Shown piece after piece: positions 4,776-59,000 of a stretch of DNA of 60,000 nt. Origin of the DNA: Bolinopsis microptera (Eukaryota > Ctenophora > Tentaculata > Lobata > Bolinopsidae); assembly GCF_026151205.1 (NCBI RefSeq), contig NC_087079.1:374001-434000 (forward strand). The letters run 5' to 3'. Position numbers and translations under genes: made by a program. A model generated the notes under the pieces. That model was not told where the DNA came from. It searched no databases and worked only from the letters and a program-made list of their open reading frames with translations. Every line of letters begins with the position of its first letter. Positions within the stretch are counted from its first letter, which is position 1.

Positions 4776-7700
4776 CTATTTTTCCCAAGCTTTCTCCCAA
4801 GCGCTGTTCCACGATTCCCTGGTTGCACCCTGGTCACTGGTCGCACAATATCTAGGATCATTGAAGCTATTGGGAGTGTGCCTGTTGCTCTCTACAGACC
4901 CGAACTGTTTGTTACTTTCAGCTGAGCTAAAGTGCCTGCTGAAATCTGCGACGTTAAATTGAGGTGAGTTACAGTTGGAGCAGAATTGAGGTTGCTGGAC
5001 AGGTTGGTAACCACACATAGGAGGTGGCATGTAACCCCACCAATAATAGGGGGGTCCCTGTGGGGGGCCACAATTCGGTTGAGAGCCGAAATTCGGCAGA
5101 GGGCCACAATTCGGTTGAGGGCCACAATTTGGTTGAGGGCCACAGGATGGCGGGGGGCCACAAGCTGATTGAGGGCCACAAGCTGGTTGAGGGCCACAAG
5201 CTGGTTGAGGGCCACAAGCTGATTGAGGGCCACAAGCTGGTGGAGGACCACAACTTGGTGGTGTGCTACAAGTTGGAGGGGCACCGAAGGAAGCCGGAGC
5301 ACTGCAGTATGAAGGATACTGGTACGAGGAGGAGTAAAAGGAAATTCCTGAATCTTTGCTCTGTTCTCTGCAAAGATCGCCGGGGCGATGGTGACAATGG
5401 TGAGCATAAGGTTGACGTGACGCAGAATCAAAAGAAGAACTGGTAGATTGGCATCCTGCTCGTCCGGAGGAAGCTACAGAGTGCAACATGTTTCCAGGTA
5501 ACTCATCGTAAGTAGGGTCAGTGCTGCTGTAATAGGGCTTGTGCAGGAAACTCATATCCTCAGATGGCATCCTGGCGTAGCAAGGTTTAGGTGCAGGTGG
5601 TTCTTGTGGAGAGGTTCTCTTAATCATCAGGGGGTCGTGCTCCGAGTTAGCTACAAATCCTTGTGATACAAACCGAGCGAGGGGCTTCTTTGCGGGAACT
5701 TCGCAAACTGCAGTAGAAGAATTTTGAAGGATTTCAAACTTTGGCGGGAAGAAACCTCTGTAATCAGTATCGTAGCTCTTATCAGTAAACTCGTATTTAA
5801 GACACAGGTAGTTCTCGAGGAGGAACTTGACATTGATAGCCTTGGAGTGGATAATACACCCGGCAGAAGACACGGCTTCAGACCTCCACTTGGGGGTGTG
5901 TGGAGACAGGATATTACAGTTCGCAAACTCTGCTGCGGCAGACTGGGTTCTACGATTAGGCTGACCTTTGGGTGAAGCCATATTCAGGGATTTAGGGGGT
6001 TTCCTCGCTTTCTTCTCATTTTTAGACCTCCTTCTAGTTCTAGTTACATTCTCGTTACCAGTAGTATCGTTATCAGAGTGTGACTTTTGTGAGGGTGGTT
6101 TTTGTGAGCCACAAGTTGAGGGAGTTGAACTAGGAGCGTCCTCTTCAGCTTCAGGCATTAAACTCAAACTACCCAGCGCTTCTGTAAACAGGGACAAATC
6201 CTCCTGGTAGTGGTTTACGTCCTGACTACTAAAGTTGAACACTGACACATTCTCATCTGCAGAACCTGGCAGTTGAGCTGATTCCAGCGAGTCTGGGATT
6301 TTACCTAGGATATGAGTTCGAGATAAGAAAAGCAGTTTACCAAGAATATGAGTTTAAGATAAGATAAGGGTTTAACCTAGGATATGCGTTCGGGATAAGG
6401 AAGAAACAAGGGTTTATCTAAACGAAAGACAAAACACCCGTTAACAGTGCGTACGTTACCAACAGAACATTTGTTTTTAAAAGTGAGTTACAACATAATA
6501 CATAACGCTAATGCAGAATTCAGAGTATTAAACTTAAAGTTTTGTGTAATCTTTAGTAAGTACCATATGCTAACACCTCCGCTATTCCGACAAGGTTCCC
6601 AATATACAGAATCTTAACAAAAAGACACCTTACAGACCGGACATTTGTGCAACAAATAGACCATTACGCAATGCATTCCTCAACTCTAAGAATAGCCCGA
6701 AAAAAGAAGCTAAAAACCGGACCTGATCTAATAAGCCTAGAGAAGTTAATTTCTAAAAATAGATTGCAACTAACCCAGACTGCCGAGGCTACTGAGCGCC
6801 GTATCTCCATCTAACTCCTGTTTCCCGTCTGGTTCAACCTTTTCTGACATCTTAATCTTTCGGGGATCTGTTCCGCTGGATGAACCTCTAGACTGAAAAA
6901 TAATACTTCATTAACAACAGCTTACTTATCTTAGTATTTTATTAACAGATTTACGTATAACATAAAATAAAGGATTTACAAGTTCAGAGATAAGTACATT
7001 TCCGGTCTTCAACCAATAATAAAATATGACAGAAGTAAAACTAACCTTTTGAGTAACTTTGACGTTAGATCTGAGACTATTAAGATCAGTAACAGTGCCT
7101 GTCTCTGACTTGTTATTTGACCAGCCGTTGAAGACTGAGTCTGGAGTTGGGGCGCTTTTACTGCTCCGTTCACTCTTAACTTCAGACACACTTCCAGTTA
7201 AATCCTCGTTAGAGAAGTCGTGTGAACTACCTTTGGAGTCTGTGTGGGAGCTGTTACTCTCTGGGAGTGGCTCTTTCTCGGGGGTTGAGGGGAGGGCAGG
7301 TTCAGAGGATGGCCCCTTACTTCTTCTCAGGAGATCTGTTATTTGGTCGTAGGGTGGACCTTCTTTAACTTCTACCTACAAGACAAACAGTGTAAGAGGG
7401 TGATAAATCACACAGAGACACACTAGAGACACACACAAGAGACACACACTAGAAACACACACAAGAGACACACACTAGAGACACACACTAAAGCACTAGA
7501 GACACACACTAGAGACACACACTAGAGACACACACTAGAAACACACACTAGAGACACACACTAAAGCACTAGAGACACACACTAGAGACACACACTAGAA
7601 ACACACACAAGAGACACACACTAGAGACACACACTAAAGCACTAGAGACACACACAAGAGACACACACTAGAAACACACACAAGAGACACACACTAGAGA

Positions 7701-10700
7701 CACACACTAAAGTACTAGAGACACACACAAGAGACACACACTAGAGACACACACTAAAGCACTAGAGACACACACTAGAGACACACACTAAAGCACTAGA
7801 GACACACACTAAAGCACTAGAGACACACACTAGAGACACACACTAGAAACACACACAAGAGACACACACTAGAGACACACACTAAAGCACTAGAAACACA
7901 CACAAGAGACACACACTAGAGACACACACTAAAGCACTAGAGACACACACTAGAGACACACAGGAGACACACTGGACAGCGCAGTGTCCAGACACAAACT
8001 AGAAACACACTAGGCTAGACGGTGCAAACAATCTGATGAAAGGTCGTTAACACTTATCTTATACTTGACACAACTAGTTATAACAATAATGGTGCATACA
8101 TATGTATATCAGAGAAGGTATATTTTAATACTTTCATTTTAATACTTTCAACACTACTATATAACAAATAATTTGAGGAAACGATGTAACAGAGTCGATA
8201 TATTTTAATGTTGCCATGGGGTGGCAAGTCCCCATACATCGCAGTCCGGTAGTTTCATTGCGTCTTAATATATATTATTATAAAGAAAACCGTGCAGAAA
8301 TATACGACAATCGACATAAATGTAACATTCGGAAGGAAATACGACTAAGACTGTGAAAACGAAGAGATTGCGAATGAATATTATTCATAAAATATTTCAA
8401 ACTGGTCCTTGATAAAGCAAACAAACAAAAGTATAGCCGATTGAAAGTTGCCCTCCGAGAGGATTTCTAACAAGGTTACTAGAGATCATTATCTCATTTA
8501 CCCGTTAATATGTAGGCGGGGGAAAGCGGTGGATAAAGGAAGTGGAAGCGTGGGGCGGTGCATAATGCTGCTCACATAATAATTAACATAATTAACAGTG
8601 CAACACAGGTAACACAGGTAACAGAGGTAGAGAGAAAACTAACTCGCACCGTCACACGCACCATCATGACCTTCTCAGGACACGTAATATTATAACATCA
8701 GAACAACATGACATCCACTAGTTTTAAACTTGACGTCATGAAGGCCATTTGATGAGCCGTTCTATTTTTAGCGTATGTGATATTTGTGAGAATATTTGTG
8801 AGAAAGGAAACCTGATACTTCTCCCCCAGATCCTGTATGAACATGTGCTCCTTCTGGGAGGCGATGATGGAGATGGTTGAGCCGTACTTCCCAAACCTTC
8901 CTGCTCGACCTGGTTAGAGTGAAGTTAGAAGACGGATCAGACAAGGGCTGGGTACAGTTCAGGGTGAGTTCACTGGGTGAGCAGGGTGAGTTCACTGGGT
9001 GAGTTCACTGGGTGAGCGCATAACACATCCAACAAGGAGTGTAACACACCTAATAAGGAGTGTAACACATCCAATAAGGAGTGTAACACATCCAATAAGG
9101 ATCAGGAGTGTAACACACCTAATAAGGAGTGTAACACACCTAATAAGAAGTGTAACACACCTAATAAGGAGTGTAACACACCTAATAAGGAGTGTAACAC
9201 ACCTAATAAGGAGTGTAACACACCTAATAAGGAGTGTAACACACCTAATAAGGAGTGTAACACACCTAATAAGGAGTGTAACACACCTAATAAGGAGTGT
9301 AACACACCTAATAAGGAGTGTAACACACCTAATAAGGAGTGTAACACACCTAATAAGGAGTGTAACACACCTAATAAGGAGTGTAACACACCTAATAAGG
9401 AGTGTAACACACCTAATAAGGAGTGTAACACACCTAATAAGGAGTGTAACACACCTAATAAGGAGTGTAACACACCTAATAAGGAGTGTAACACACCCAA
9501 TAAGGAGTGTAACACACCCAATAAGGAGTGTAACACACCCAATAAGGAGTGTAACACACCCAATAAGGAGTGTAACACACCCAATAAGGAGTGTAACACA
9601 CCTAATAAGGAGTGTAACACACCTAATAAGGAGTGTAACACACCTAATAAGGAGTGTAACACACCTAATAAGGAGTGTAACACACCTAATAAGAAGTGTA
9701 ACACACCTAATAAGGAGTGTAACACACCTAATAAGGAGTGTAACACACCTAATAAGGAGTGTAACACACCTAATAAGGAGTGTAACACACCTAATAAGGA
9801 GTGTAACACACCTAATAAGGAGTGTAACACACCTAATAAGGAGTGTAACACACCTAATAAGGAGTGTAACACACCTAATAAGGAGTGTAACACACCAATA
9901 AGGAGTGTAACACACCTAATAAGGAGTGTAACACACCCAATAAGGAGTGTAACACACCTAATAAGGAGTGTAACACACCCAATAAGGAGTGTAACACACC
10001 TAATAAGGAGTGTAACACACCCAATAAGGAGTGTAACACACCTAATAAGGAGTGTAACACACCCAATAAGGAGTGTAACACACCTAATAAGGAGTGTAAC
10101 ACACCCAATAAGGAGTGTAACACACCTAATAAGGAGTGTAACACACCTAATAAGGAGTGTAACACACCAATAAGGAGTGTAACACACCTAATAAGGAGTG
10201 TAACACACCCAATAAGGAGTGTAACACACCTAATAAGGAGTGTAACACACCCAATAAGGAGTGTAACACACCTAATAAGAAGTGTAACACACCTAATAAG
10301 GAGTGTAACACACCTAATAAGAAGTGTAACACACCTAATAAGGAGTGTAACACACCTAATAAGGAGTGTAACACACCTAATAAGGAGTGTAACACACCTA
10401 ATAAGGAGTGTAACACACCTAATAAGGAGTGTAACACACCTAATAAGGAGTGTAACACACCTAATAAGGAGTGTAACACACCTAATAAGGAGTGTAACAC
10501 ACCCAATAAGGAGTGTAACACACCTAATAAGGAGTGTAACACACCCAATAAGGAGTGTAACACACCTAATAAGGAGTGTAACACACCCAATAAGGAGTGT
10601 AACACACCTAATAAGGAGTGTAACACACCTAATAAGGAGTGTAACACACCTAATAAGGAGTGTAACACACCTAATAAGGAGTGTAACACACCTAATAAGG

Positions 10701-13700
10701 AGTGTAACACACCTAATAAGGAGTGTAACACACCCAATAAGGAGTGTAACACACCTAATAAGGAGTGTAACACACCCAATAAGGAGTGTAACACACCTAA
10801 TAAGGAGTGTAACACACCTAATAAGGAGTGTAACACACCTAATAAGGAGTGTAACACACCTAATAAGGAGTGTAACACACCTAATAAGGAGTGTAACACA
10901 CCTAATAAGGAGTGTAACACACCTAATAAGGAGTGTAACACACCTAATAAGGAGTGTAACACACCTAATAAGGAGTGTAACACACCTAATAAGGAGTGTA
11001 ACACACCTAATAAGGAGTGTAACACACCTAATAAGGAGTGTAACACACCTAATAAGGAGTGTAACACACCTAATAAGGAGTGTAACACACCTAATAAGGA
11101 GTGTAACACACCTAATAAGGAGTGTAACACACCTAATAAGGAGTGTAACACACCTAATAAGGAGTGTAACACACCTAATAAGGAGTGTAACACACCTAAT
11201 AAGGAGTGTAACACACCTAATAAGGAGTGTAACACACCTAATAAGGAGTGTAACACACCTAATAAGGAGTGTAACACACCTAATAAGGAGTGTAACACAC
11301 CTAATAAGGAGTGTAACACACCTAATAAGGAGTGTAACACACCTAATAAGGAGTGTAACACACCTAATAAGGAGTGTAACACACCTAATAAGGAGTGTAA
11401 CACACCTAATAAGGAGTGTAACACACCTAATAAGGAGTGTAACACACCTAATAAGGAGTGTAACACACCTAATAAGGAGTGTAACACACCTAATAAGGAG
11501 TGTTACACACCTAATAAGGAGTGTAACACACCTAATAAGGAGTGTAACACACCTAATAAGGAGTGTAACACACCTAATAAGGAGTGTAACACACCTAATA
11601 AGGAGTGTAACACACCTAATAAGGAGTATTCCAGAACAGCGGTGTGGATGTGAGCTGACCTAGAAGAGAACTAGAGGGGAACTAGCTCTAAAAGAGCAGT
11701 GAAGTGTTTGAATATAGTGTTAAAAGTAAGTGACGTGTTGTGATACTTGATAGTTCACATTTAGTGCAGTTCACTTCGTTGAATATTAATGAGCATGCAC
11801 AACTGTTCTGATTGTATCATCATTTTACGTTTTATTAAATCATCATGGGAAATATAGTCACCAGGTACTGGTTGTGGGAAATATGTTAACAGATCTAACA
11901 TTAATGGGGGGTATCGTGATCGTAGTTCTCTCACGAGCTAGGCTCTGTGAAGGTAAGTGACCTTACTTACCAGCTATGTGAAGGTAAGTGACCTTACTGG
12001 CTTACTTACCAGTGAAGGTAAGTGACCATACTCACCAGCTATGTGAAGGTAAGTGACCTTACTTACCAGCTATGTGAAGGTAAGTGACCTTACTCACCAG
12101 CTCTGTGAAGGTAAGTGACCTTACTCACCAGCTATGTGAAGGTAAGTGACCTTACTTACCAGCTATGTGAAGGTAAGTGACCTTACTCACCAGCTCTGTG
12201 AAGGTAAGTGACCTTACTCACCAGCTATGTGAAGGTAAGTGACCTTACTGGCTTACTACCAGTGAAGGTTAGTGACCTTACTCACCAGCTATGTGAAGGT
12301 AAGTGACCTTACTCACCAGCTATGTGAAGGTAAGTGACCTTACTCACCAGCTATGTGAAGGTAAGTGACCTTACTTACCAGCTATGTGAAGGTAAGTGAC
12401 CTTACTTACCAGCTATGTGAAGGTAAGTGACCTTACTTACCAGCTATGTGAAGGTAAGTGACCTTACTCACCAGCTCTGTGAAGGTAAGTGACCTTACTT
12501 ACCAGCTATGTGAAGGTAAGTGACCTTACTTACCAGCTATGTGAAGGTAAGTGACCTTACTTACCAGCTATGTGAAGGTAAGTGACCTTACTTACCAGCT
12601 ATGTGAAGGTAAGTGACCTTACTTACCAGCTCTGTGAAGGTAAGTGACCTTACTTACCAGCTATGTGAAGGTAAGTGACCTTACTTACCAGCTATGTGAA
12701 GGTATGTGACCTTACTCACCAGCTCTGTGAAGGTATGTGTGAGGGTCGGGGTTCATAAGCGTGTTTACGGGGAGGTCCATGTTGATGACCAGGTCCACGT
12801 GCTCGTTATCTATACCACGTGCCGTGACGTCAGTGCTTATCAGTACACGAAATCTGCAATTAAATCTGATTAGAGGCATTGTTTTTAGGAAATATTCAAA
12901 TGTTAGGCTAGCAAGACTTTATTAAGATCTCTAATTAGGAGATGAGATAAAACACAAGATATATGATATAAGGCTGGACTACCTGCATTCCCTAAAATCA
13001 GCCATTGCTTGTGACCTATCTCTTTGAGCCATGTTTCCTGCTATTAGCTGTAAATAAGTTATTATTTGTACAACATTATCTAACAAAATACATTTAATTC
13101 GCTATTTGTCAAATAAATGAGTATTTAGCAGTAATCGCCGTGAAATCCCGGCGCCGGGGGAGCTATTTCTTCCCGGCCCCGGCCCCGGCCGATTTTCAAT
13201 TTTTGCCGGGAATTTGGCCGGGAATTTTTGATCGAAATCGGCCTAAAACTTTCATATAAATCTTAAAATGGATTTTCAATTTTGAAAGGATGATGTCCAG
13301 AGTGCCAACTTTTATTTACTGTTTCAGCTGAACAAAATTATTTTACCAAAATATATATGAAATCTAATTACCTTCTAAACTGTTCAATTGATACGAACAT
13401 TATATTGTCAAGTAAAAATAAGTTCAGATCCTAACTCCTGAAAAGTTCTAACTTGGCCGTGGATTTATTAAATTCACGGCCCCGGCCCCGGCCAAATTCC
13501 AGAACGGCCAATTCCCGGCCCCGGCAAAATTTGGACATTCCCGGCCCCGGCCCCGGCCCCGGCCAAATCCTACCCCCAGTCGTTTACTGGTATTTAGTGA
13601 TTACTCTTGATGCGTTTCAAATAATGTAGAGTTGAAGGAAGAAGTAACAAAATCTGTGACACTGTGGTGACACTATGACACTGTGACACTGGTGTGACAC

Positions 13701-16700
13701 TGTGACACTGGTGTGACACTGTGACACTGGTGTGACACTGTGACACTGGTGTGACACTGTGACACTGGTGTGACACTGTGACACTGGTGACCCAATCAAA
13801 TGTTGTGTGCTTTATAGCCACGATTCAAGTATCACAACAACTACTGTTGATTAGGTGGGATCAGCATGGTTACCATAGCAGCATGGTCAGCATGGTTCCC
13901 ATGGTTACCTGGTTAGAGAATCCCTCTCTGGTGAGACACAGACTGATCTCCTCAGCTCCTGTCTGATAGTTGGAGAATACCAAACATTGTTCAAATGTCA
14001 CGTTAGACAGGATCTCCACCAATCTAATGGGGTTAAATATTAAGTCACTGCTATTGGTTAAAAGATATTCTCACAAAAACCAGGTTAAAATGAACAATGA
14101 ACAATAGTTTAAAATATTTACGGTGGGATCTGCGTTAGACTACATACTAGTTACATCATCTTAAGCCATTGGCTATTCTGTTAACGTCTTCACGATCAAA
14201 ACACGATTACAACTTATACGGAACAACGAATGAACAAGTCACAATAAACTGCTCTCTATTTTAATTGAGCTAAAGAATATCCTACAAAGAAACCTATAAT
14301 TGAGCCAGAACTATTTCTGATTATACCTGGATATCTTGTTGCAGAATATCTGGTGTTTGACTTTGTCCGTTTTAACAGTGTAGTAAAAGTGGTGTATACC
14401 CTCCAGACCCATATTATCCGCACTTATCCGCACATAGTAGGGGTCCCTCATCAGCGTGTTGAACTTAGTGTCTATGTCCTGTAATAGCCACTAGTGAGCT
14501 AGTATAACTACTACTGCAACTGGTAGTGTAGCTATAAGTGTAACTGGTACAGTATATCACGAGCAGAAACGTGCACCACCGCGAAATTTAGACCCAGACC
14601 GCAGTCTTTGAGGTATTGGCCGTCAGATCAACAAATACAGCTGTTAATGATAAATTAGTTCTTCAATGTAGAGTGATATTAAGAAATCAATTCATATACA
14701 TCAGTTACACAACCAAATACCATCATGTACACAGTAGACGGCGGTTTGGATATCTAAAAGTCAGACCGCGGTCAGACCGCTGCCGCCGACCAACTTTGGC
14801 GTCCAGACCGCCGCCGCCTATTGCCTAAAAGTAACACGGTGCACATCTCTGATCACGAGTTAAGGTGAGACCGTATTAACGTTACTCATCATAATATTAT
14901 TACAAATAGAATTGACCTGAGATCAGATCACAACTAACTAAAAAGTATATATGAGTTCTAGTTAGTAATAGAGTATGAAGCGCGCTATATTCTTACTAAC
15001 CATTTATTAATATTTGTTATAACTAACCATATTATTAACGTATTATATAAGAAGACGATCAAGCAGCAAGTTATAATATATCGTATTGAGCTGTGTGAAT
15101 TGTAATTTGTGTTTGGTGAAAACAAATCGTCGGTTTCGAGACAGAACGATGTTCAGTACCACAAGTAACATTGAACTAACTACTAATACTTAATTAGCAC
15201 TTAGGAAATCAGTACTTATCTACTACTAGTAATGGTGCGGCATTGTTCTGATCTGCTTTACAGACAGGTAGTATGGATAGACTAGAGAGGTGTGTTATTA
15301 TCAATGGGTGCGGTTTGTAAGTGTTCTGTCACATATACTGAAATTGCTTTTTTTTAAATGGTGGGCGCCAGTATTAATAAAAACCTAGCGAAAGAAAGGA
15401 CAGTTTTAACTTCAATTTAAGATTTAATTACACAGACAGAGTCTGTTACCATAGCTACTAGGGAAATGTGATACTAACTGCACAATAGTGGTAGGTTATT
15501 ATTCAGTTGTACAAATACTGAATACTAGGTACAAACAGTTGGTAACAACTTTAATGCTAAAATAATTTAATTACTTCCAGTCCAGTCATTATCAAACCCA
15601 CATTTATTTATCAAAACTAATCATAGTAAGGAAATATTCTATTTTACATTTTTAAACTGTAATTTCTATACCTGTACTATACCTAAATAAAATCTCTTTA
15701 CACAGAGAAAACAACAACGGTGGCGAGAACCTAAAAAAAGGGCACACAATGATTATTAATTACATACCTCGATATAAATCCGTGGTATGCAAACTCGCGC
15801 CATTGAGAGTGAAAAGGAGAAAAGGGAGGGCTAAATATTTGGAGAAACAGGTTGGTAGAAGTTGTGCGTAGGGGTAACTTGATACACGAACTTGTGGTAC
15901 AAATAAGAAATACTATGCAGGAACCACACGTAGGAGTAACTTGATACACGAACTTGTGGTACAAATAAGAAATACTATGCAGGAACCACACGTAGGAGTA
16001 ACTTGATACACGAACTTGTGGTACAAATAAGAAATACTATGCAGGAACCACACGTAGGAGTAACTTGATACACGAACTTGTGGTACAAATAAGAAATACT
16101 ATGCAGGAACCACACGTAGGAGTAACTTGATACACGAACTTGTGGTACAAATAAGAAATACTATGCAGGAACCACACGTAGGAGTAACTTGATACACGAA
16201 CTTGTGGTACAAATAAGAAATACTATGCAGGAACCACACGTAGGAGTAACTTGATACACGAACTTGTGGTACAAATAAGAAATACTATGCAGGAACCACA
16301 CGTAGGAGTAACTTGATACACGAACTTGTGGTACAAATAAGAAATACTATGCAGGAACCACACGTAGGAGTAACTTGATACACGAACTTGTGGTACAAAT
16401 AAGAAATACTATGCAGGAACCACACGTAGGAGTAACTTGATACACGAACTTGTGGTACAAATAAGAAATACTATGCAGGAACCACACGTAGGAGTAACTT
16501 GATACACGAACTTGTGGTACAAATAAGAAATACTATGCAGGAACCACACGTAGGAGTAACTTGATACACGAACTTGTGGTACAAATAAGAAATACTATGC
16601 AGGAACCACACGTAGGAGTAACTTGATACACGAACTTGTGGTACAAATAAGAAATACTATGCAGGAACCACACGTAGGAGTAACTTGATACACGAACTTG

Positions 16701-19700
16701 TGGTACAAATAAGAAATACTATGCAGGAACCACACGTAGGGGTAACTTGATACACGAACTTGTGGTACAAATAAGAAATACTATGCAGGAACCACACGTA
16801 GGAGTAACTTGATACACGAACTTGTGGTACAAATAAGAAATACTATGCAGGAACCACACGTAGGAGTAACTTGATACACGAACTTGTGGTACAAATAAGA
16901 AATACTATGCAGGAACCACACGTAGGAGTAACTTGATACACGAACTTGTGGTACAAATAAGAAATACTATGCAGGAACCACACGTAGGAGTAACTTGATA
17001 CACGAACTTGTGGTACAAATAAGAAATACTATGCAGGAACCACACGTAGGAGTAACTTGATACACGAACTTGTGGTACAAATAAGAAATACTATGCAGGA
17101 ACCACACGTAGGAGTAACTTGATACACGAACTTGTGGTACAAATAAGAAATACTATGCAGGAACCACACGTAGGAGTAACTTGATACACGAACTTGTGGT
17201 ACAAATAAGAAATACTATGCAGGAACCACACGTAGGAGTAACTTGATACACGAACTTGTGGTACAAATAAGAAATACTATGCAGGAACCACACGTAGGAG
17301 TAACTTGATACACGAACTTGTGGTACAAATAAGAAATACTATGCAGGAACCACACGTAGGAGTAACTTGATACACGAACTTGTGGTACAAATAAGAAATA
17401 CTATGCAGGAACCACACGTAGGAGTAACTTGATACACGAACTTGTGGTACAAATAAGAAATACTATGCAGGAACCACACGTAGGAGTAACTTGATACACG
17501 AACTTGTGGTACAAATAAGAAATACTATGCAGGAACCACACGTAGGAGTAACTTGATACACGAACTTGTGGTACAAATAAGAAATACTATGCAGGAACCA
17601 CACGTAGGAGTAACTTGATACACGAACTTGTGGTACAAATAAGAAATACTATGCAGGAACCACACGTAGGAGTAACTTGATACACGAACTTGTGGTACAA
17701 ATAAGAAATACTATGCAGGAACCACACGTAGGAGTAACTTGATACACGAACTTGTGGTACAAATAAGAAATACTATGCAGGAACCACACGTAGGAGTAAC
17801 TTGATACACGAACTTGTGGTACAAATAAGAAATACTATGCAGGAACCACACGTAGGAGTAACTTGATACACGAACTTGTGGTACAAATAAGAAATACTAT
17901 GCAGGAACCACACGTAGGAGTAACTTGATACACGAACTTGTGGTACAAATAAGAAATACTATGCAGGAACCACACGTAGGAGTAACTTGATACACGAACT
18001 TGTGGTACAAATAAGAAATACTATGCAGGAACCACACGTAGGAGTAACTTGATACACGAACTTGTGGTACAAATAAGAAATACTATGCAGGAACCACACG
18101 TAGGAGTAACTTGATACACGAACTTGTGGTACAAATAAGAAATACTATGCAGGAACCACACGTAGGAGTAACTTGATACACGAACTTGTGGTACAAATAA
18201 GAAATACTATGCAGGAACCACACGTAGGAGTAACTTGATACACGAACTTGTGGTACAAATAAGAAATACTATGCAGGAACCACACGTAGGAGTAACTTGA
18301 TACACGAACTTGTGGTACAAATAAGAAATACTATGCAGGAACCACACGTAGGAGTAACTTGATACACGAACTTGTGGTACAAATAAGAAATACTATGCAG
18401 GAACCACACGTAGGAGTAACTTGATACACGAACTTGTGGTACAAATAAGAAATACTATGCAGGAACCACACGTAGGAGTAACTTGATACACGAACTTGTG
18501 GTACAAATAAGAAATACTATGCAGGAACCACACGTAGGAGTAACTTGATACACGAACTTGTGGTACAAATAAGAAATACTATGCAGGAACCACACGTAGG
18601 AGTAACTTGATACACGAACTTGTGGTACAAATAAGAAATACTATGCAGGAACCACACGTAGGAGTAACTTGATACACGAACTTGTGGTACAAATAAGAAA
18701 TACTATGCAGGAACCACACGTAGGAGTAACTTGATACACGAACTTGTGGTACAAATAAGAAATACTATGCAGGAACCACACGTAGGAGTAACTTGATACA
18801 CGAACTTGTGGTACAAATAAGAAATACTATGCAGGAACCACACGTAGGAGTAACTTGATACACGAACTTGTGGTACAAATAAGAAATACTATGCAGGAAC
18901 CACACGTAGGAGTAACTTGATACACGAACTTGTGGTACAAATAAGAAATACTATGCAGGAACCACACGTAGGAGTAACTTGATACACGAACTTGTGGTAC
19001 AAATAAGAAATACTATGCAGGAACCACACGTAGGAGTAACTTGATACACGAACTTGTGGTACAAATAAGAAATACTATGCAGGAACCACACGTAGGAGTA
19101 ACTTGATACACGAACTTGTGGTACAAATAAGAAATACTATGCAGGAACCACACGTAGGAGTAACTTGATACACGAACTTGTGGTACAAATAAGAAATACT
19201 ATGCAGGAACCACACGTAGGAGTAACTTGATACACGAACTTGTGGTACAAATAAGAAATACTATGCAGGAACCACACGTAGGAGTAACTTGATACACGAA
19301 CTTGTGGTACAAATAAGAAATACTATGCAGGAACCACACGTAGGAGTAACTTGATACACGAACTTGTGGTACAAATAAGAAATACTATGCAGGAACCACA
19401 CGTAGGAGTAACTTGATACACGAACTTGTGGTACAAATAAGAAATACTATGCAGGAACCACACGTAGGAGTAACTTGATACACGAACTTGTGGTACAAAT
19501 AAGAAATACTATGCAGGAACCACACGTAGGAGTAACTTGATACACGAACTTGTGGTACAAATAAGAAATACTATGCAGGAACCACACGTAGGAGTAACTT
19601 GATACACGAACTTGTGGTACAAATAAGAAATACTATGCAGGAACCACACGTAGGAGTAACTTGATACACGAACTTGTGGTACAAATAAGAAATACTATGC

Positions 19701-22700
19701 AGGAACCACACGTAGGAGTAACTTGATACACGAACTTGTGGTACAAATAAGAAATACTATGCAGGAACCACACGTAGGAGTAACTTGATACACGAACTTG
19801 TGGTACAAATAAGAAATACTATGCAGGAACCACACGTAGGAGTAACTTGATACACGAACTTGTGGTACAAATAAGAAATACTATGCAGGAACCACACGTA
19901 GGAGTAACTTGATACACGAACTTGTGGTACAAATAAGAAATACTATGCAGGAACCACACGTAGGAGTAACTTGATACACGAACTTGTGGTACAAATAAGA
20001 AATACTATGCAGGAACCACACGTAGGAGTAACTTGATACACGAACTTGTGGTACAAATAAGAAATACTATGCAGGAACCACACGTAGGAGTAACTTGATA
20101 CACGAACTTGTGGTACAAATAAGAAATACTATGCAGGAACCACACGTAGGAGTAACTTGATACACGAACTTGTGGTACAAATAAGAAATACTATGCAGGA
20201 ACCACACGTAGGAGTAACTTGATACACGAACTTGTGGTACAAATAAGAAATACTATGCAGGAACCACACGTAGGAGTAACTTGATACACGAACTTGTGGT
20301 ACAAATAAGAAATACTATGCAGGAACCACACGTAGGAGTAACTTGATACACGAACTTGTGGTACAAATAAGAAATACTATGCAGGAACCACACGTAGGAG
20401 TAACTTGATACACGAACTTGTGGTACAAATAAGAAATACTATGCAGGAACCACACGTAGGAGTAACTTGATACACGAACTTGTGGTACAAATAAGAAATA
20501 CTATGCAGGAACCACACGTAGGAGTAACTTGATACACGAACTTGTGGTACAAATAAGAAATACTATGCAGGAACCACACGTAGGAGTAACTTGATACACG
20601 AACTTGTGGTACAAATAAGAAATACTATGCAGGAACCACACGTAGGAGTAACTTGATACACGAACTTGTGGTACAAATAAGAAATACTATGCAGGAACCA
20701 CACGTAGGAGTAACTTGATACACGAACTTGTGGTACAAATAAGAAATACTATGCAGGAACCACACGTAGGAGTAACTTGATACACGAACTTGTGGTACAA
20801 ATAAGAAATACTATGCAGGAACCACACGTAGGAGTAACTTGATACACGAACTTGTGGTACAAATAAGAAATACTATGCAGGAACCACACGTAGGAGTAAC
20901 TTGATACACGAACTTGTGGTACAAATAAGAAATACTATGCAGGAACCACACGTAGGAGTAACTTGATACACGAACTTGTGGTACAAATAAGAAATACTAT
21001 GCAGGAACCACACGTAGGAGTAACTTGATACACGAACTTGTGGTACAAATAAGAAATACTATGCAGGAACCACACGTAGGAGTAACTTGATACACGAACT
21101 TGTGGTACAAATAAGAAATACTATGCAGGAACCACACGTAGGAGTAACTTGATACACGAACTTGTGGTACAAATAAGAAATACTATGCAGGAACCACACG
21201 TAGGAGTAACTTGATACACGAACTTGTGGTACAAATAAGAAATACTATGCAGGAACCACACGTAGGAGTAACTTGATACACGAACTTGTGGTACAAATAA
21301 GAAATACTATGCAGGAACCACACGTAGGAGTAACTTGATACACGAACTTGTGGTACAAATAAGAAATACTATGCAGGAACCACACGTAGGAGTAACTTGA
21401 TACACGAACTTGTGGTACAAATAAGAAATACTATGCAGGAACCACACGTAGGAGTAACTTGATACACGAACTTGTGGTACAAATAAGAAATACTATGCAG
21501 GAACCACACGTAGGAGTAACTTGATACACGAACTTGTGGTACAAATAAGAAATACTATGCAGGAACCACACGTAGGAGTAACTTGATACACGAACTTGTG
21601 GTACAAATAAGAAATACTATGCAGGAACCACACGTAGGAGTAACTTGATACACGAACTTGTGGTACAAATAAGAAATACTATGCAGGAACCACACGTAGG
21701 AGTAACTTGATACACGAACTTGTGGTACAAATAAGAAATACTATGCAGGAACCACACGTAGGAGTAACTTGATACACGAACTTGTGGTACAAATAAGAAA
21801 TACTATGCAGGAACCACACGTAGGAGTAACTTGATACACGAACTTGTGGTACAAATAAGAAATACTATGCAGGAACCACACGTAGGGGTAACTTGATACA
21901 CGAACTTGTGGTACAAATAAGAAATACTACGCAGGAACCACACGTAGGAGTAACTTGATACACGAACTTGTGGTACAAATAAGAAATACTATGCAGGAAC
22001 CACACGTAGGAGTAACTTGATACACGAACTTGTGGTACAAATAAGAAATACTATGCAGGAACCACACGTAGGAGTAACTTGATACACGAACTTGTGGTAC
22101 AAATAAGAAATACTATGCAGGAACCACACGTTGGAGTAACTTGATACACGAACTTGTGGTACAAATAAGAAATACTATGCAGGAACCACACGTAGGAGTA
22201 ACTTGATACACGAACTTGTGGTACAAATAAGAAATACTATGCAGGAACCACACGTAGGAGTAACTTGATACACGAACTTGTGGTACAAATAAGAAATACT
22301 ATGCAGGAACCACACGTAGGAGTAACTTGATACACGAACTTGTGGTACAAATAAGAAATACTATGCAGGAACCACACGTAGGAGTAACTTGATACACGAA
22401 CTTGTGGTACAAATAAGAAATACTATGCAGGAACCACACGTAGGGGTAACTTGATACACGAACTTGTGGTACAAATAAGAAATACTATGCAGGAACCACA
22501 CGTAGGAGTAACTTGATACACGAACTTGTGGTACAAATAAGAAATACTATGCAGGAACCACACGTAGGAGTAACTTGATACACGAACTTGTGGTACAAAT
22601 AAGAAATACTATGCAGGAACCACACGTAGGAGTAACTTGATACACGAACTTGTGGTAAAAATAAGAAATACTATGCAGGAACCCCACGTAGGAGTAACTT

Positions 22701-25700
22701 GATACACGAACTTGTGGTACAAATAAGAAATACTATGCAGGAACCACACGTAGGAGTAACTTGATACACGAACTTGTGGTACAAATAAGAAATACTATGC
22801 AGGAACCACACGTAGGAGTAACTTGATACACGAACTTGTGGTACAAATAAGAAATACTATGCAGGAACCACACGTAGGAGTAACTTGATACACGAACTTG
22901 TGGTACAAATAAGAAATACTATGCAGGAACCACACGTAGGAGTAACTTGATACACGAACTTGTGGTACAAATAAGAAATACTATGCAGGAACCACACGTA
23001 GGAGTAACTTGATACACGAACTTGTGGTACAAATAAGAAATACTATGCAGGAACCACACGTAGGAGTAACTTGATACACGAACTTGTGGTACAAATAAGA
23101 AATACTATGCAGGAACCACACGTAGGAGTAACTTGATACACGAACTTGTGGTACAAATAAGAAATACTATGCAGGAACCACACGTAGGAGTAACTTGATA
23201 CACGAACTTGTGGTACAAATAAGAAATACTATGCAGGAACCACACGTAGGAGTAACTTGATACACGAACTTGTGGTACAAATAAGAAATACTATGCAGGA
23301 ACCACACGTAGGAGTAACTTGATACACGAACTTGTGGTAAAAATAAGAAATACTATGCAGGAACCCCACGTAGGAGTAACTTGATACACGAACTTGTGGT
23401 ACAAATAAGAAATACTATGCAGGAACCACACGTAGATACAAAAAACAACGGTGAACTGCGAGCTAAATATATTAAACCAAGGAAAATAGCGTCGAATTCC
23501 AGATTTAATTCCAGATGGTTAAGTTAACTAATTGCTGGCCATGTTTCAGCAGCAATACCGTGTAATTACTTTTAATTGTTCAGATTTCTGTTGATTACCG
23601 GTGTTATATTTTAATATGCTTATATATGGCAGAATATGTTTAATTTTTATACCGCAATAACTTAATAAGGTTACAGGACAGGAAATATTTAATATGACCA
23701 GCGGTGTATTTTAGAGTTCCACGTTAATCAGCTGATAAAATATTGCACTACATTAGATTACTATACAAAAAGCTATGTATGTTTTGTATTATTCCGCCAT
23801 TTGGGATTTGAATGGCAAAAACTGAAATTGAAATAAGTTGGGTGAGTGTTAATATCGCCTCAAACCTTCCAATAAAAGTGGTATCTGTCCCACATCCCCA
23901 CATAACAAGGACCAGAAGTGCGAATATCACACTTTCCGAAGCCCTATTTCCAAGTGACCGATCTCAAATCGATTTTTAATCGATCAGCTTTTTAAAGCTT
24001 TAGTTACTTAGTAATAGTCCACCATACACGTACTACTCTCAGCTACTAGATACAAGTATTATGATAGTATTTAAAATTCTGCCTGTAGCTGTATTAAAAC
24101 GCTAAAACAGACAATATACTAATTGTTATGATATAGCCAAAGGCTAACGAAAACTAGACTTATAATACAACGTTTGATTAAATAATTGTGCTAGACCAGT
24201 GTTGATTATTGCAGTTGTTAAAATAGTAATAACGCTCAATATCCGTGTTAAAAGATTAAAAGTATACATTGGATATTGTATCAGTGAAGTGTAATCAATT
24301 TATAGACTACGATCTGAAGAGGTCTCATCTTGTAATCAAAACAGACAGTACTGTATGAAGTGATAACTGCGTGAAGTTGTACTTTCAGAACCATAACGTG
24401 GGTTACATAAAATTTTGGTTCGACTCCTGATCCTCGCTCAATTCAAGTTACAAGTACAGGCTTTACTGATAAACATGAGACTGCTTTTACATGTGATGAC
24501 TGGAGAGCTGGAGGTTTTTTAACAGGGAGATAAAAAGGATACATTTTCATGCCTCGGATTGGCTTTTACAGGCCTGCACCGGGTGAAGAGAGCTTATATC
24601 TGTTATTAATATTAGTGAATTTTGTTAAGTAAAAACTGTGATAGTATAACAGTAATAGCATCCTCGTAATATTATAATAATATAATACCATTTTAAACAC
24701 GCATTACGCCATTATGAAAATGGAGTAAAATTACAATAAACCGAACTGAGATCGAAGGGTTCCAGAAAACTGCACAATAACCACGCCACTCACTGGTCAA
24801 GCGAAGGTAATCAGGATGGATAATGTAAGCCCTCCTGTCCTCAGTCACCTAATAGTCAATGGAACAGCATGTGATCTAAAGTTGAATAGGTTTGAGGTCT
24901 GCCTTCTCAAGTTACTAGTTAATAAGTCTAATATGTAGTTGTTATAAGCTGCACCTCCCATTCAACTGTTTATTATTCGATGGTAGAGAAAATTTGTCGT
25001 GCGAGGTACAATCGCCGCGAAATTCTTGTTTATTAGTGGAAATAGCTTCCTCTCTGGTATGCAAACATGCATGTAAAGTATGGTGAACAACAACCACACT
25101 AAAACCAATATGTTGGCGTCACTTGGGACATAATATGCCATCTATGACTATATTCTATAAACCTCCTAAATTATAATATATAAATAATAATCCCAGTAAT
25201 ATACAAGTATAGAAGAATATTCCCAGCCCGAGTGTAGATTCCTGAGTGTCTAGGTATAGCGGGGAGGTGTGACGTCACGTGAATCCTCGGAGAAGGTGTG
25301 ACGTAGCGTGTATCCACGGAAAAAGAAGCCACAAAAAGAGGGAATAAGTGTCAGTACGGACGGACGGATGTGACAAAGTCCGCGGAATGCGGAGAATTTC
25401 TAGTACATTCTTAACGAGCTGGGCTTTAACAAAAGAGTACATGTACGTAGTTGAAAAGAATTGTGAAAAAATGCATCTTATGAATAAAATAGGGACAAAT
25501 CACGCGTTTCAAAATTTTAGGAGCTGAAACATAGTAACACTACGTCATAACAAAGAAGCAGACAGTTATTAGGAACTGTTTCTTATTTTCAAAAAGTTAT
25601 TTATATTGTGCGAAAATGCCTGTATTATGAGAACTAGTGTAGTAAGTTTAAATGTTTATGAACTATAAATTTAACAATATGTAGATGAGAATTGTCTAGA

Positions 25701-53009: not shown

Positions 53010-56000
53010 CTATCCTTCTTTCTCTTTCTCTGACTTTTCGGGTTCCCCCACTTTTTCACGCTCCTGATCCTCCTCCTCTGCAGGTGGTTCGGGGGAATTA
53101 TCTGGTGGTTCATAATCAATATCTCCAAATTCTTCTTCCATGCTGACACAGCACACTACCATGAACAGTCGAATGCAGCAAACTATCATAGCGTTTTTCA
53201 CCTGAATTACAAAAAAACTGATAAACTATTCTAAAAATGAGAGAAATTATATATAGTTGTACTGTACGCTTTAAAGAAATAATTAAAGAACATAATATTG
53301 TTACATAATATAACCTGTTCTTTGGCGTCGATTTTAACCGGATCACCCTCTTCTTTTTTGTTAATGTTCATGGTCGTGTCAGCTATGAATCTGAGATATT
53401 TTACTTTTAGTAATGTAATTTAAATAGGAAGGTAAGATATATACATTATACCTAGTGAAAGTGCTGGTGACGATGAGAAAGACCATAAACCAGGGATTCC
53501 TTCGGGAGCATGTAAGATTATATCCAAAGTTTGTTCGCCAATGGGGTGTGTCTGGGTGTCAAAGATCTTCAAGGTGGGTGCTACTTGTGATGAACTCTAG
53601 AAGGATGGGATGGTAATACTCGGTCTGGCCGTCTGGAAGCCCATAGAATTCCAGTTCAGAAACCGAGTAAGGAGGTGCGGCTACTGATGAGAAGCCTCCT
53701 TAAAGTTTATTTGGGTTAGAAACGACATCTGGGTCCCTACCCTCGCACAAGATTATTCTCAATTTTCTTGTTGTGTCCACAACTATACCGTTGATCAGAG
53801 TCACATCTGATGACTTCAGTGAAAGGGCTGATGACTTCAGTGAAAGAGCTGGTGACCTAGTGAAAGTGCTGGTGACGATGAGAAAGACCATAAACCAGGG
53901 ATTCCTTCGGGAGCATGTAAGATTATATCCAAAGTTTGTTCGCCAATGGGGTGTGTCTGGGTGTCAAAGATCTTCAAGGTGGGTGCTACTTGTGATGAAC
54001 TCTAGAAGGATGGGATGGTAATACTCGGTCTGGCCGTCTGGAAGCCCATAGAATTCCAGTTCAGAAACCGAGTAAGGAGGTGCGGCTACTGATGAGAAGC
54101 CTCCTTAAAGTTTATTTGGGTTAGAAACGACATCTGGGTCCCTACCCTCGCACAAGATTATTCTCAATTTTCTTGTTGTGTCCACAACTATACCGTTGAT
54201 CAGAGTCACATCTGATGACTTCAGTGAAAGGGCTGATGACTTCAGTGAAAGAGCTGGTGACCTAGTGAAAGTGCTGGTGACGATGAGAAAGACCATAAAC
54301 CAGGGATTCCTTCGGGAGCATGTAAGATTATATCCAAAGTTTGTTCGCCAATGGGGTGTGTCTGGGTGTCAAAGATCTTCAAGGTGGGTGCTACTTGTGA
54401 TGAACTCTAGAAGGATGGGATGGTAATACTCGGTCTGGCCGTCTGGAAGCCCATAGAATTCCAGTTCAGAAACCGAGTAAGGAGGTGCGGCTACTGATGA
54501 GAAGCCTCCTTAAAGTTTATTTGGGTTAGAAACGACATCTGGGTCCCTACCCTCGCACAAGATTATTCTCAATTTTCTTGTTGTGTCCACAACTATACCG
54601 TTGATCAGAGTCACATCTGATGACTTCAGTGAAAGGGCTGATGACTTCAGTGAAAGAGCTGGTGACCTAGTGAAAGTGCTGGTGACGATGAGAAAGACCA
54701 TAAACCAGGGATTCCTTCGGGAGCATGTAAGATTATATCCAAAGTTTGTTCGCCAATGGGGTGTGTCTGGGTGTCAAAGATCTTCAAGGTGGGTGCTACT
54801 TGTGATGAACTCTAGAAGGATGGGATGGTAATACTCGGTCTGGCCGTCTGGAAGCCCATAGAATTCCAGTTCAGAAACCGAGTAAGGAGGTGCGGCTACT
54901 GATGAGAAGCCTCCTTAAAGTTTATTTGGGTTAGAAACGACATCTGGGTCCCTACCCTCGCACAAGATTATTCTCAATTTTCTTGTTGTGTCCACAACTA
55001 TACCGTTGATCAGAGTCACATCTGATGACTTCAGTGAAAGGGCTGATGACTTCAGTGAAAGAGCTGGTGACCTAGTGAAAGTGCTGGTGACGATGAGAAA
55101 GACCATAAACCAGGGATTCCTTCGGGAGCATGTAAGATTATATCCAAAGTTTGTTCGCCAATGGGGTGTGTCTGGGTGTCAAAGATCTTCAAGGTGGGTG
55201 CTACTTGTGATGAACTCTAGAAGGATGGGATGGTAATACTCGGTCTGGCCGTCTGGAAGCCCATAGAATTCCAGTTCAGAAACCGAGTAAGGAGGTGCGG
55301 CTACTGATGAGAAGCCTCCTTAAAGTTTATTTGGGTTAGAAACGACATCTGGGTCCCTACCCTCGCACAAGATTATTCTCAATTTTCTTGTTGTGTCCAC
55401 AACTATACCGTTGATCAGAGTCACATCTGATGACTTCAGTGAAAGGGCTGATGACTTCAGTGAAAGAGCTGGTGACCTAGTGAAAGTGCTGGTGACGATG
55501 AGAAAGACCATAAACCAGGGATTCCTTCGGGAGCATGTAAGATTATATCCAAAGTTTGTTCGCCAATGGGGTGTGTCTGGGTGTCAAAGATCTTCAAGGT
55601 GGGTGCTACTTGTGATGAACTCTAGAAGGATGGGATGGTAATACTCGGTCTGGCCGTCTGGAAGCCCATAGAATTCCAGTTCAGAAACCGAGTAAGGAGG
55701 TGCGGCTACTGATGAGAAGCCTCCTTAAAGTTTATTTGGGTTAGAAACGACATCTGGGTCCCTACCCTCGCACAAGATTATTCTCAATTTTCTTGTTGTG
55801 TCCACAACTATACCGTTGATCAGAGTCACATCTGATGACTTCAGTGAAAGGGCTGATGACTTCAGTGAAAGAGCTGGTGACCTAGTGAAAGTGCTGGTGA
55901 CGATGAGAAAGACCATAAACCAGGGATTCCTTCGGGAGCATGTAAGATTATATCCAAAGTTTGTTCGCCAATGGGGTGTGTCTGGGTGTCAAAGATCTTC

Positions 56001-59000
56001 AAGGTGGGTGCTACTTGTGATGAACTCTAGAAGGATGGGATGGTAATACTCGGTCTGGCCGTCTGGAAGCCCATAGAATTCCAGTTCAGAAACCGAGTAA
56101 GGAGGTGCGGCTACTGATGAGAAGCCTCCTTAAAGTTTATTTGGGTTAGAAACGACATCTGGGTCCCTACCCTCGCACAAGATTATTCTCATTTTTCTTG
56201 TTGTGTCCACAACTATACTGCCACTGGTATTGATTCTCAGAGTTCGGACTAAAAAATGAATAAGTATAAAACGTTAAGTGGACTCAGGTTAAAACAAAGA
56301 AGGCTTAGTATTGAACAGCTTAAAACTAACCCAAAAGGCAAATTGAGGCTTTGCTGAAGAAAGTGCTCCAAGAACCCCCTCCTTTTTGATCCTTTTGTTC
56401 TGATTAGAATGAGTGTTTTTTGTCTGTTCATTTCTCTGACTCTGCAGTAACAGGTATTAGCGTTAGAACGAAAGATTTGTAATCAATAATATATTACAAT
56501 ACCTGTTTTAGTATTACAGATCATACCCTCTTTAATTTTCAATCTAACCAGACTCCGAATTAAATTCTGTTTCATGCAGGTTGAATGAAGAACTGTGATT
56601 CAAAAGTTTTAGAATAATTTACCTTATCGAATATAATTTTACCGGACATTCCGTGAACGGACAAAATTCTGACCGTAGTGGAATACTGATGGAATACTGA
56701 GAGTGGAAAACTTTTGGGACCAAAATTTAAACGAACTTTGACTTCATCTAAACGGACATAAATATGAACGCTAGGGCCTCCAGCGTCCACTTAATGTACG
56801 TTCCAATAAAGTCGGATAATGTAGAATAATATTTGCCTGATTTTGTTAAGGCAAACCCTCTTCCTAGGCAGGTTAGAGGGTATACACAGGATGTGACCGT
56901 CCTTCTCTGTCATCATCATCGGGGTGTAGATCTCGTTCAGCACCTGAATATTCATATTTCGTACATTACTAGCACCTGAATATTCATATTTCGTACATTA
57001 CTAGCACCTGAATATTCATATTTCGTACATTACTAGCACCTGAATATTCATATTTCGTACATTACTTTCTATTGTGTGGACTAACATCATCATCCCATTC
57101 TTATCCTACGAAGCCTATCAACAAAATTTAACTTCGCTGATTACACTTCAGATTGTGACGCTCATCTCACTAAGCAAACTATAAAGTAAAAAATTAACAA
57201 GTTTCAGTATTGACCTTGTGAGGATCTTCGTTTCCAATGTACTCCTCCCAGTGCTGTTTTAAGGTCTTATTAGTGTACGTCAGTATAGATCCCCGCTTAG
57301 AGGCCTTTCTCTCCGCTTTCTGAAAAGTTTATAAAGTAGTCGTCCTGTGTTTTATTTTGCAATTACTTTCCAACACTAGTTGGTTCTCCAAGATTACAGA
57401 TTATGAAAAACAGAAATTTTATTCGGCTTATAGCTGTATAATTTATTCTACGATCGAAGATCAAAAAGTGAACAATATGAATATGGTTAATCTATTGTCA
57501 ATTTAATGCGGACATTAATTGGTTAGATAATATTAATAAATGTCTGATATTTGTATCACAGAACTAAAAATAACAATAAATAAGGCTGGTTTACAAAAGT
57601 CTCACAGTCAGTCTCACTGTAAACAAAGTAGAGCAATAAATTGATCAACCCTAACCGGGCAAGGATTCCATATTTAAGTTTGGAGATAATAATGATGTTG
57701 TACCCGATTGTTGATACGCGCTCTTTTCGGAAGTGAACTTCTTTCAATTTGATGGGAATCATCGTAGATTTTTGCAATTGTTCTATCAATTTGATGGGTA
57801 ATAATTTTAGGTACCATCGACAACATAACAAGTACAACTGTACGACAACAGGCACGGCGCATAAATATTATTTAGCAGAGATTCGGCGTGTCATCAGGTG
57901 CTCAATAAACTGATTCGGAAAGTTGAGATCTGAAAGTGATGATTAGCACCTTTCTTCCGCTTTTAAGGCAACTTATTTTACCCCAATTTACTAATAATAA
58001 TATAAAGACGACCGCCCTCAATTATTAAACATCTGTTTATCAACCCAGAAGCGTTGGCTATTTAACCTTTATTAATTATCAATTTTATGTTTAATTTATA
58101 ATTATATCTATTACAAAGTTGTTAGAGTTTAGGGGGGCTTACATTTTGGATCAGACTGGGCGTCTTACTGGCTCCTATCTAAGGAAGTTATTTATGATTT
58201 GGAATGTACATGATAGGCTTCACCTCAGGGGTTGCATTTTCCGAATTTTAGGTATTTAGAAATAAAAAACGTTAAATTTGTGAATAATCCTGTCCAATTT
58301 AACGTTCGGTCGACGCGAAAACAATATTTGGATACAAAAGGCCCCGGGGGAGGGGGGCAAAAAAGAAAGCCTGATCTTTACTTAAGACATTAGAAAAATT
58401 TAAGGTGGGCGGCAAAAACAGATTCATTTTATATAAATATTAGCCAAACGTTGGGTTCTTCATTGGAGATAGAACACGATTGTTTAATATTAATTATTTA
58501 CTTTTGTACGCATAATACCAAACCATTTGAACATCTAAATGTCTTGGCCCCTTCTGTTGGTACAAAATTATGTCTACCGAGGATGTCTATACAAATTGCC
58601 CGGAAATTCTAATAATCAAAGCAAGCTCCTCCTTTACCGGCAACCTTACTTTCACCCTGCTTAATTAATACAAAAATCTCAGAGTGATTATTATTTTCAG
58701 TAAAATAATATATTAGCATATCATTCAAAGTTTTATTATGAGCAATTTTGTACACTCAATTGTCATTTGTCCAAAGTAACAACTTATAGTGGCAGGGCAG
58801 TAATGGAGCAGTGCTACAGGGGTAACGCCAGGCCCTGGCGGTCAGGGTGACATGGCAGTATGGGGGCAGTGACAACAGAGTGACACGGCAGTAATCAGTA
58901 TGGGGGTGGTGACACCAGGGACCAGGGTGACACGGCAGTATGGGGGTGGTGACACGGCAGTATGGGGGTGGTGTCACCAGGGTGACACGGCAGTGACATA

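Follow-up and report, generated by a model that had tools for sequence, protein, structure and literature searches.

Tandem copies of a splice donor at an exon end of DDX20 in Bolinopsis microptera: a probable mirage-type minisatellite, with comparable arrays at further exon ends in the genome

A 60,000-nucleotide stretch of the genome of the ctenophore Bolinopsis microptera (contig NC_087079.1, positions 374,001 to 434,000; the whole stretch is called the window here, and positions are counted from its first letter) holds a tandem array of a 31-bp unit that spans an exon-intron junction of a gene identified by similarity as DDX20 (Gemin3). The array derives from that junction and carries a ladder of donors, all of which except the first lead to one common stop codon, and comparable arrays occur where several other exons of this genome end. 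By its structural features the array most likely belongs to a known kind, the mirage minisatellite, and we consider it probable that it is mostly inert, the first donor being mainly used and the array being removed with the intron. The recurrence of donor arrays in one genome is a more interesting point than the DDX20 array itself. Feature positions are collected in Table 1.

Table 1. The DDX20 exons, intron and repeats in the window (positions of the window), and four arrays elsewhere in the genome that abut an acceptor
Feature	Position	Strand	Description
DDX20 coding exon	12720..12853	-	134 nt, end ...TYLHRA + G; Pfam Helicase_C 2.3e-7
Authentic 5' splice site GTGAGT	12714..12719	-	+1 at 12719; sole open-frame donor of 24
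In-frame TAA	12712..12714	-	reached five nt into the intron if the first donor is skipped
Copy 0, authentic junction	12708..12738	-	ACATACCTTCACAGAGCTG (last 19 nt of exon) followed by GTGAGTAAGGTC (first 12 nt of intron)
Downstream copies	11942..12707	-	22 copies at 31 nt, single copies at 33 and 34 nt, then a 17-nt partial copy
DDX20 intron	8910..12719	-	3810 bp, of which 3442 bp tandem repeats
21-bp array, same intron	9021..11627	.	124 copies (TRF)
Small array	8960..9016	.	unit GGGTGAGTTCACT on + strand; ends 50 bp ahead of the acceptor of the downstream exon
Downstream DDX20 exon	8812..8909	-	starts GT CGA GCA GGA (GRAGRFG); 3' end by eye
L039		other strand	acceptor-abutting; LMF1_C, Pfam 1.6e-23
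L041		other strand	acceptor-abutting; methyltransferase, Pfam 7.6e-10; relative L057 also acceptor-abutting
L042		other strand	acceptor-abutting; copine, Pfam 1.1e-4, below cut-off
L056		other strand	acceptor-abutting; molybdopterin-binding, Pfam 3.7e-13

The gene was identified through its DEAD-motif exon, near 29.9 kb, whose best match among solved structures is DDX20 (2oxc; 3.1e-10, 43.3 bits), the next-best match reaching 1.1e-4 and 26.0 bits; the identity proposed in a preliminary description of the window is borne out by this result. The exon that ends in the array, numbered exon 9 in that description, encodes 44 residues, including the 5' part of motif VI. Splicing it in silico to the exon beginning at 8909 gave TYLHRAGRAGRFG, which reads LHRAGRAGRFG, helicase motif VI. 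The motif (HRxGRxGRFG) spans the junction once the exons are joined, so that the earlier statement that the junction cuts it (HRAGRAGRFG) holds, and the joined exons score 51.6 bits against Pfam Helicase_C, whereas the first exon by itself reaches 31.5 and a product truncated as ...LHRAGE 38.8. A genome search with the helicase query returned 17 matches and no second copy of DDX20: the 15 of 17 that lie beyond the two DDX20 exons each scored at most 43 bits, and neither a paralogue nor a second haplotype was found for a comparison of array length.

TRF places the array at 11942-12739, with a period of 31, 25.6 copies and 92% matches, in good agreement with the approximately 25 donor copies first counted. 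Cut into units beginning at the exon side, it gives 26 registers, and the unit comprises 19-20 nt of exonic and 11-12 nt of intronic sequence; the register of 19 nt of exon plus 12 nt of intron supports the proposed origin from the exon/intron junction. The unit had been correctly described as exon end plus donor, but its exonic part was drawn too short, as LHRA rather than TYLHRA+G. The end of the exon differs from the unit by 2 mismatches, and 0 of 200,000 random 19-mers came as close. Copy 0 and the 22 full-length downstream copies differ by 1-3 bases, nearly all at three sites. A genome search for the 31-mer that allowed as many as 3 mismatches gave at least 23 matches; those found were all inside the DDX20 array, on which ground a dispersed 31-bp repeat family was rejected. 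Tandem arrays are difficult to assemble and a single assembly was examined, and it might be asked whether the array or its copy number was misassembled. We regard this as highly improbable, since the copies vary at the three recurrent sites in mixed order and include two length variants, and since the genome is rich in arrays (tandem repeats cover 10.6% of 20 sampled 10-kb stretches, versus 30.0% of the window).

On its minus strand the array carries 24 GGTRAGT sites, of which 10 read GTGAGT and the other 14 GTAAGT, versus a mean of 0.08 after mononucleotide shuffling. The predicted U1 duplex has an energy of -10.8 kcal/mol at the authentic donor and of -10.7 to -11.1 kcal/mol across all 24, and the ladder of consensus donors that had been proposed is thus real. 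The consequences foreseen for the protein are a different matter. It had been suggested that one downstream donor in three would keep the frame and add residues inside motif VI, and that isoforms of variable length might result. When each donor was joined in silico to the exon at 8909, the frame was open from donor 0 only; all 23 downstream donors (23/23), as well as intron retention, run directly into GGT GAG TAA and end in ...LHRAGE*. In-frame insertions inside motif VI are therefore ruled out. Because GAG-TAA stands right behind the first donor, the array can give one truncated end and no length-variable proteins.

We propose that a 31-bp segment over the junction was tandemly duplicated and that the array then expanded into the intron, possibly via slippage or unequal exchange. 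The spliceosome would mainly pick the exon-proximal donor at 12719, and the whole array would leave with the intron. Use of a later donor would add GE and a stop, cutting the protein inside motif VI, and the mRNA would probably be directed to nonsense-mediated decay. The arginine codon of HRxG points to use of the first donor: it is AGA in the exon copy but has become ATA in 18 of the 22 downstream copies of full length, as would be expected if coding constraint acts on copy 0 alone.

As the later donors all give a stop, the ladder would be able only to lower the amount of productive mRNA, not to diversify the protein. This leaves room for a regulatory interpretation, in which competition among the 24 donors diverts pre-mRNA to a truncated, decaying form and the length of the array tunes the level of DDX20, with or without feedback from the supply of snRNPs. 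By predicted U1 pairing the decoys are on a par with the true donor, and their stop is identical in all 23 cases. Of 10 U1 genes found in a genome scan, 7 were inspected and 6 of these have the canonical 5' end ATACTTACCTG. According to the folding predictions, moreover, the true donor is less accessible with the array in place than without it in 5 of 6 comparisons. However, like arrays at other exons show that the arrangement is not specific to this gene, and the mirages of amphioxus are said, in the part of the source available, to leave regular splicing undisturbed (PMC3087553). We therefore judge such regulation unlikely, and feedback from snRNP supply is not needed to explain the DDX20 array, given the like arrays in other genes of the same genome. 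As a separate observation, one U1-like gene (L064, C3:16850264) has the 5' end ATACTAACCTG instead of ATACTTACCTG.

Could the RNA fold in a way that favors the first donor? Two downstream units folded singly are predicted to form a 7-bp hairpin between GGUAAGU and ACUUACC, with energies of -6.9 and -7.0 kcal/mol, versus -3.8 kcal/mol for unit 0. Each decoy might then be masked in its own hairpin, the ACUUACC arm lying six nt downstream, while the true donor, whose arm reads ACAUACC, stays open. The whole array is also predicted to fold better than 20 of 20 shuffles (z -8.9, a value inflated by the shuffling of a tandem repeat). In context, however, the accessibility of donor 0 is not higher than that of the decoys: for positions -3 to +6 it ranks 10, 17 and 16 of 24 under three window settings, for positions +1 to +6 it ranks 16, 17 and 14 of 24, and it lies below the decoy median in five of the six comparisons and about equal to it in one. 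Masking of the decoys is accordingly rejected as the reason for donor 0 winning, and a self-masking ladder seems to us a very remote prospect. Removal of the array in silico raised the accessibility of donor 0 in 5 of 6 comparisons, and the predicted structure could even weaken this donor. With near-equal U1 pairing and unremarkable accessibility, a preference for donor 0 is not explained by sequence alone.

Tandem repeats that lie over splice junctions have been observed before. For the mirage minisatellites of amphioxus, Canestro 2002 is among the references cited in PMC3087553. In amphioxus, tandem repeats extend over exon-intron boundaries in Adh3 and in the globins BflGb6 and BflGb9, with units of 10-72 bp in Adh3 and 150-160 bp in the globins, and the data are said to suggest that regular splicing is not interfered with (PMC3087553, in the portion available). 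The DDX20 array is like these mirages in that its unit spans the exon-intron boundary, with 19-20 nt of exon and 11-12 nt of intron, in that its units bear splice signals (the 24 donors), and in that its length of 31 bp falls inside the reported range (as given in the same portion of PMC3087553). It is unlike them in having approximately 25 units at the donor of a DEAD-box helicase and in being accompanied by several more such cases within a single genome.

The human IFI6 (6-16) minisatellite, described by Turri in 1995, likewise multiplies the splice donor with which an exon ends, and two of its downstream repeats are reported, in the available parts of the sources, to be used as donors, giving three mRNA species (PMC4526556, PMC2572611, PMC3618361). 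This case shows that downstream repeats are able to serve as donors, and it weighs against main use of the first donor in DDX20. Unlike IFI6, however, every downstream donor of DDX20 leads to a stop, and a full-length coding isoform from these donors is excluded by the TAA (23/23). In human duplicated genes, internal tandem repeats on exon-intron boundaries also have minisatellite units of about 30 bp and are able to change splicing; as far as the accessible text goes, they differ from the DDX20 array in having about 4 copies on average, in their association with primate segmental duplications and in their transcript support (PMC2812944). Tandem duplication across a boundary has further been described as a route of intron gain (PMC4974935, seen in part); the duplication crosses an exon-intron boundary in both cases, but a new intron appears there and an old intron grows here. 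In searches of the open-access literature that were aimed neither at DDX20 nor at the word "mirage", no genome-wide survey of such repeats was found, which is weak evidence of absence.

Donor-bearing arrays were sought throughout the B. microptera genome. Three GGTRAGT sites spaced 12-42 nt apart gave 8758 matches versus 989 for the reversed pattern; MAGGTRAGT gave 1462 versus 42, CAGGTAAGT (GTAAGT) 431 versus 0, and CAGGTGAGT (GTGAGT) 318 versus 7. With the T at +2 changed, the other three bases together gave 41 matches for CAGGTAAGT and 104 for CAGGTGAGT, and the reversals of these variants gave 33 and 88. The excess is not explained by word frequency, since in a 200-kb sample GGTRAGT as a single site is less frequent than its reversal (29 versus 42). 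The donor enrichment is large by number of matches, a measure dominated by big arrays, and smaller by number of arrays. At least 9 arrays are present among the first 100 of the 431 CAGGTAAGT matches, versus 4 for the three +2 variants together, and at least 7 among the first 100 of the 318 CAGGTGAGT matches, versus 9 for the +2 variants together (100 of 104). At the level of arrays, where the donor counts are lower bounds, the excess is clear for GTAAGT and weaker for GTGAGT. The reversed MAGGTRAGT control gave 6 arrays, but 3 of these themselves contain GGTGAGT. The acceptor word TTTTACAG gave 857 matches versus 119 for its control. In a local test on 200 kb plus the window, with 76 arrays and thus too small to decide on donor enrichment, GGTRAGT occurred in 2 arrays, each of them inside the window (rank 33 among 420 permutations, with ties). 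Among the matches listed there are at least 30 distinct donor-bearing arrays, 10 of which were seen on junctions.

We inspected the flanks of 22 arrays besides that of DDX20, taken from the listed matches (7/7 for GGTRAGT, 9 new of 10 for MAGGTRAGT and 6/9 for CAGGTAAGT); L041 and L057 belong to one repeat family, L045 and L046 to another. The sense donor of an apparent coding exon underlies 9 of the 22 by raw count (L037, L049, L050, L051, L066, L067, L069, L070 and L071). In seven of these nine the unit includes exon sequence: 26 nt in L037, 35 in L050, 23 in L051, 23 in L067, 27 in L069, 34 in L070 and 24 in L071. Units of the seven were chosen by eye, and homology with the exon tail has a shuffle p of about 5e-5 in each. 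No such homology was detected at L049 (p 0.10) or L066 (p 0.28), both of which start at the donor. The exon of L070 encodes a homeodomain (Pfam 2.7e-13) and that of L069 is of the WD40 type (1.7e-5, below the cut-off of the model), while Pfam support is weak for L037 (sushi, 0.021) and L066 (0.05). No Pfam support was obtained for the exons of L049, L050, L051, L067 and L071, which were recognized by eye from an open frame and splice signals. A search of the PDB sequences with the L050 and L037 exons gave no match at an E-value of 1 or below, and assignment of L050 to a DPH gene is thus left with no support. The frame past the first donor of L037 is open for 341 nt, and an immediate stop is therefore not a rule of this class of arrays. 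The unit lengths of the ten junction arrays, DDX20 included, are 31, 34, 25, 38, 23, 20, 41, 29, 35 and 32, none divisible by 3, for which the chance is (2/3)^10 = 0.017, a post hoc value.

Five of the 22 arrays, by raw count and by eye, adjoin an acceptor of a gene on the opposite strand (L039, L041, L042, L056 and L057). On the strand of the gene their units read ACTYACC, which we take to fit a branch-point-like CTYAC. L052 lies just beyond the donor of an opposite-strand CUB exon (3.8e-14), and some 60 nt separate L045 and L046 from the end of a presumably ABHD17-like exon, for which Pfam gave no match in the case of L045. The remaining five of the 22 are L044, the array at C1:4181600 (L047, L048, L065), L053, L055 and L068. 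In L068 (C8:7268823, plus strand) a 37-bp unit ends in TTATTTCAG followed directly by GTAAGT, an acceptor fused straight to a donor, in tandem; no exon was visible in the 201 bases inspected, and the array has the appearance of recursive splice sites in series.

The wider question is whether splice junctions favor tandem amplification or just tolerate it. It is conceivable, though we hold this tentatively, that junctions, and donors above all, are hot spots of tandem amplification in this genome through a process tied to the junction, which may be microhomology of splice sites, or transcription and splicing. If so, the DDX20 ladder would have dozens of counterparts, and some of the ladders may tune expression via poison donors. 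By itself the DDX20 array is a curiosity, although it makes a clear prediction, a single stop for all alternatives. Mirages were known from a few amphioxus genes (PMC3087553, as far as available), and donor ladders are seen here at the ends of ten exons in a single genome, among them a homeodomain and a WD40-type exon. These ten ladders are natural tests of how the spliceosome chooses among near-identical 5' splice sites, and they also bear on the wider question.

Several other repeats and reading frames were observed in the window. The 21-bp array in the DDX20 intron contains long open stretches in several frames, and a 62-bp array of 122 near-identical copies (15867-23435) lies between DDX20 exons. 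A long minus-strand open reading frame (4776-6353), in which an 18-bp repeat at 5065-5272 encodes a CGPQPA-like tract, had no match in Pfam and may be the C-terminal region of DDX20. A 405-bp unit is repeated 6.8 times at 53450-56218 with 99% matches. On the plus strand, the open reading frame at 145-1011 encodes a NERD nuclease-related domain (Pfam 7e-8), and the one beside it, at 1138-2304, has P-loop-type matches below the cut-off.
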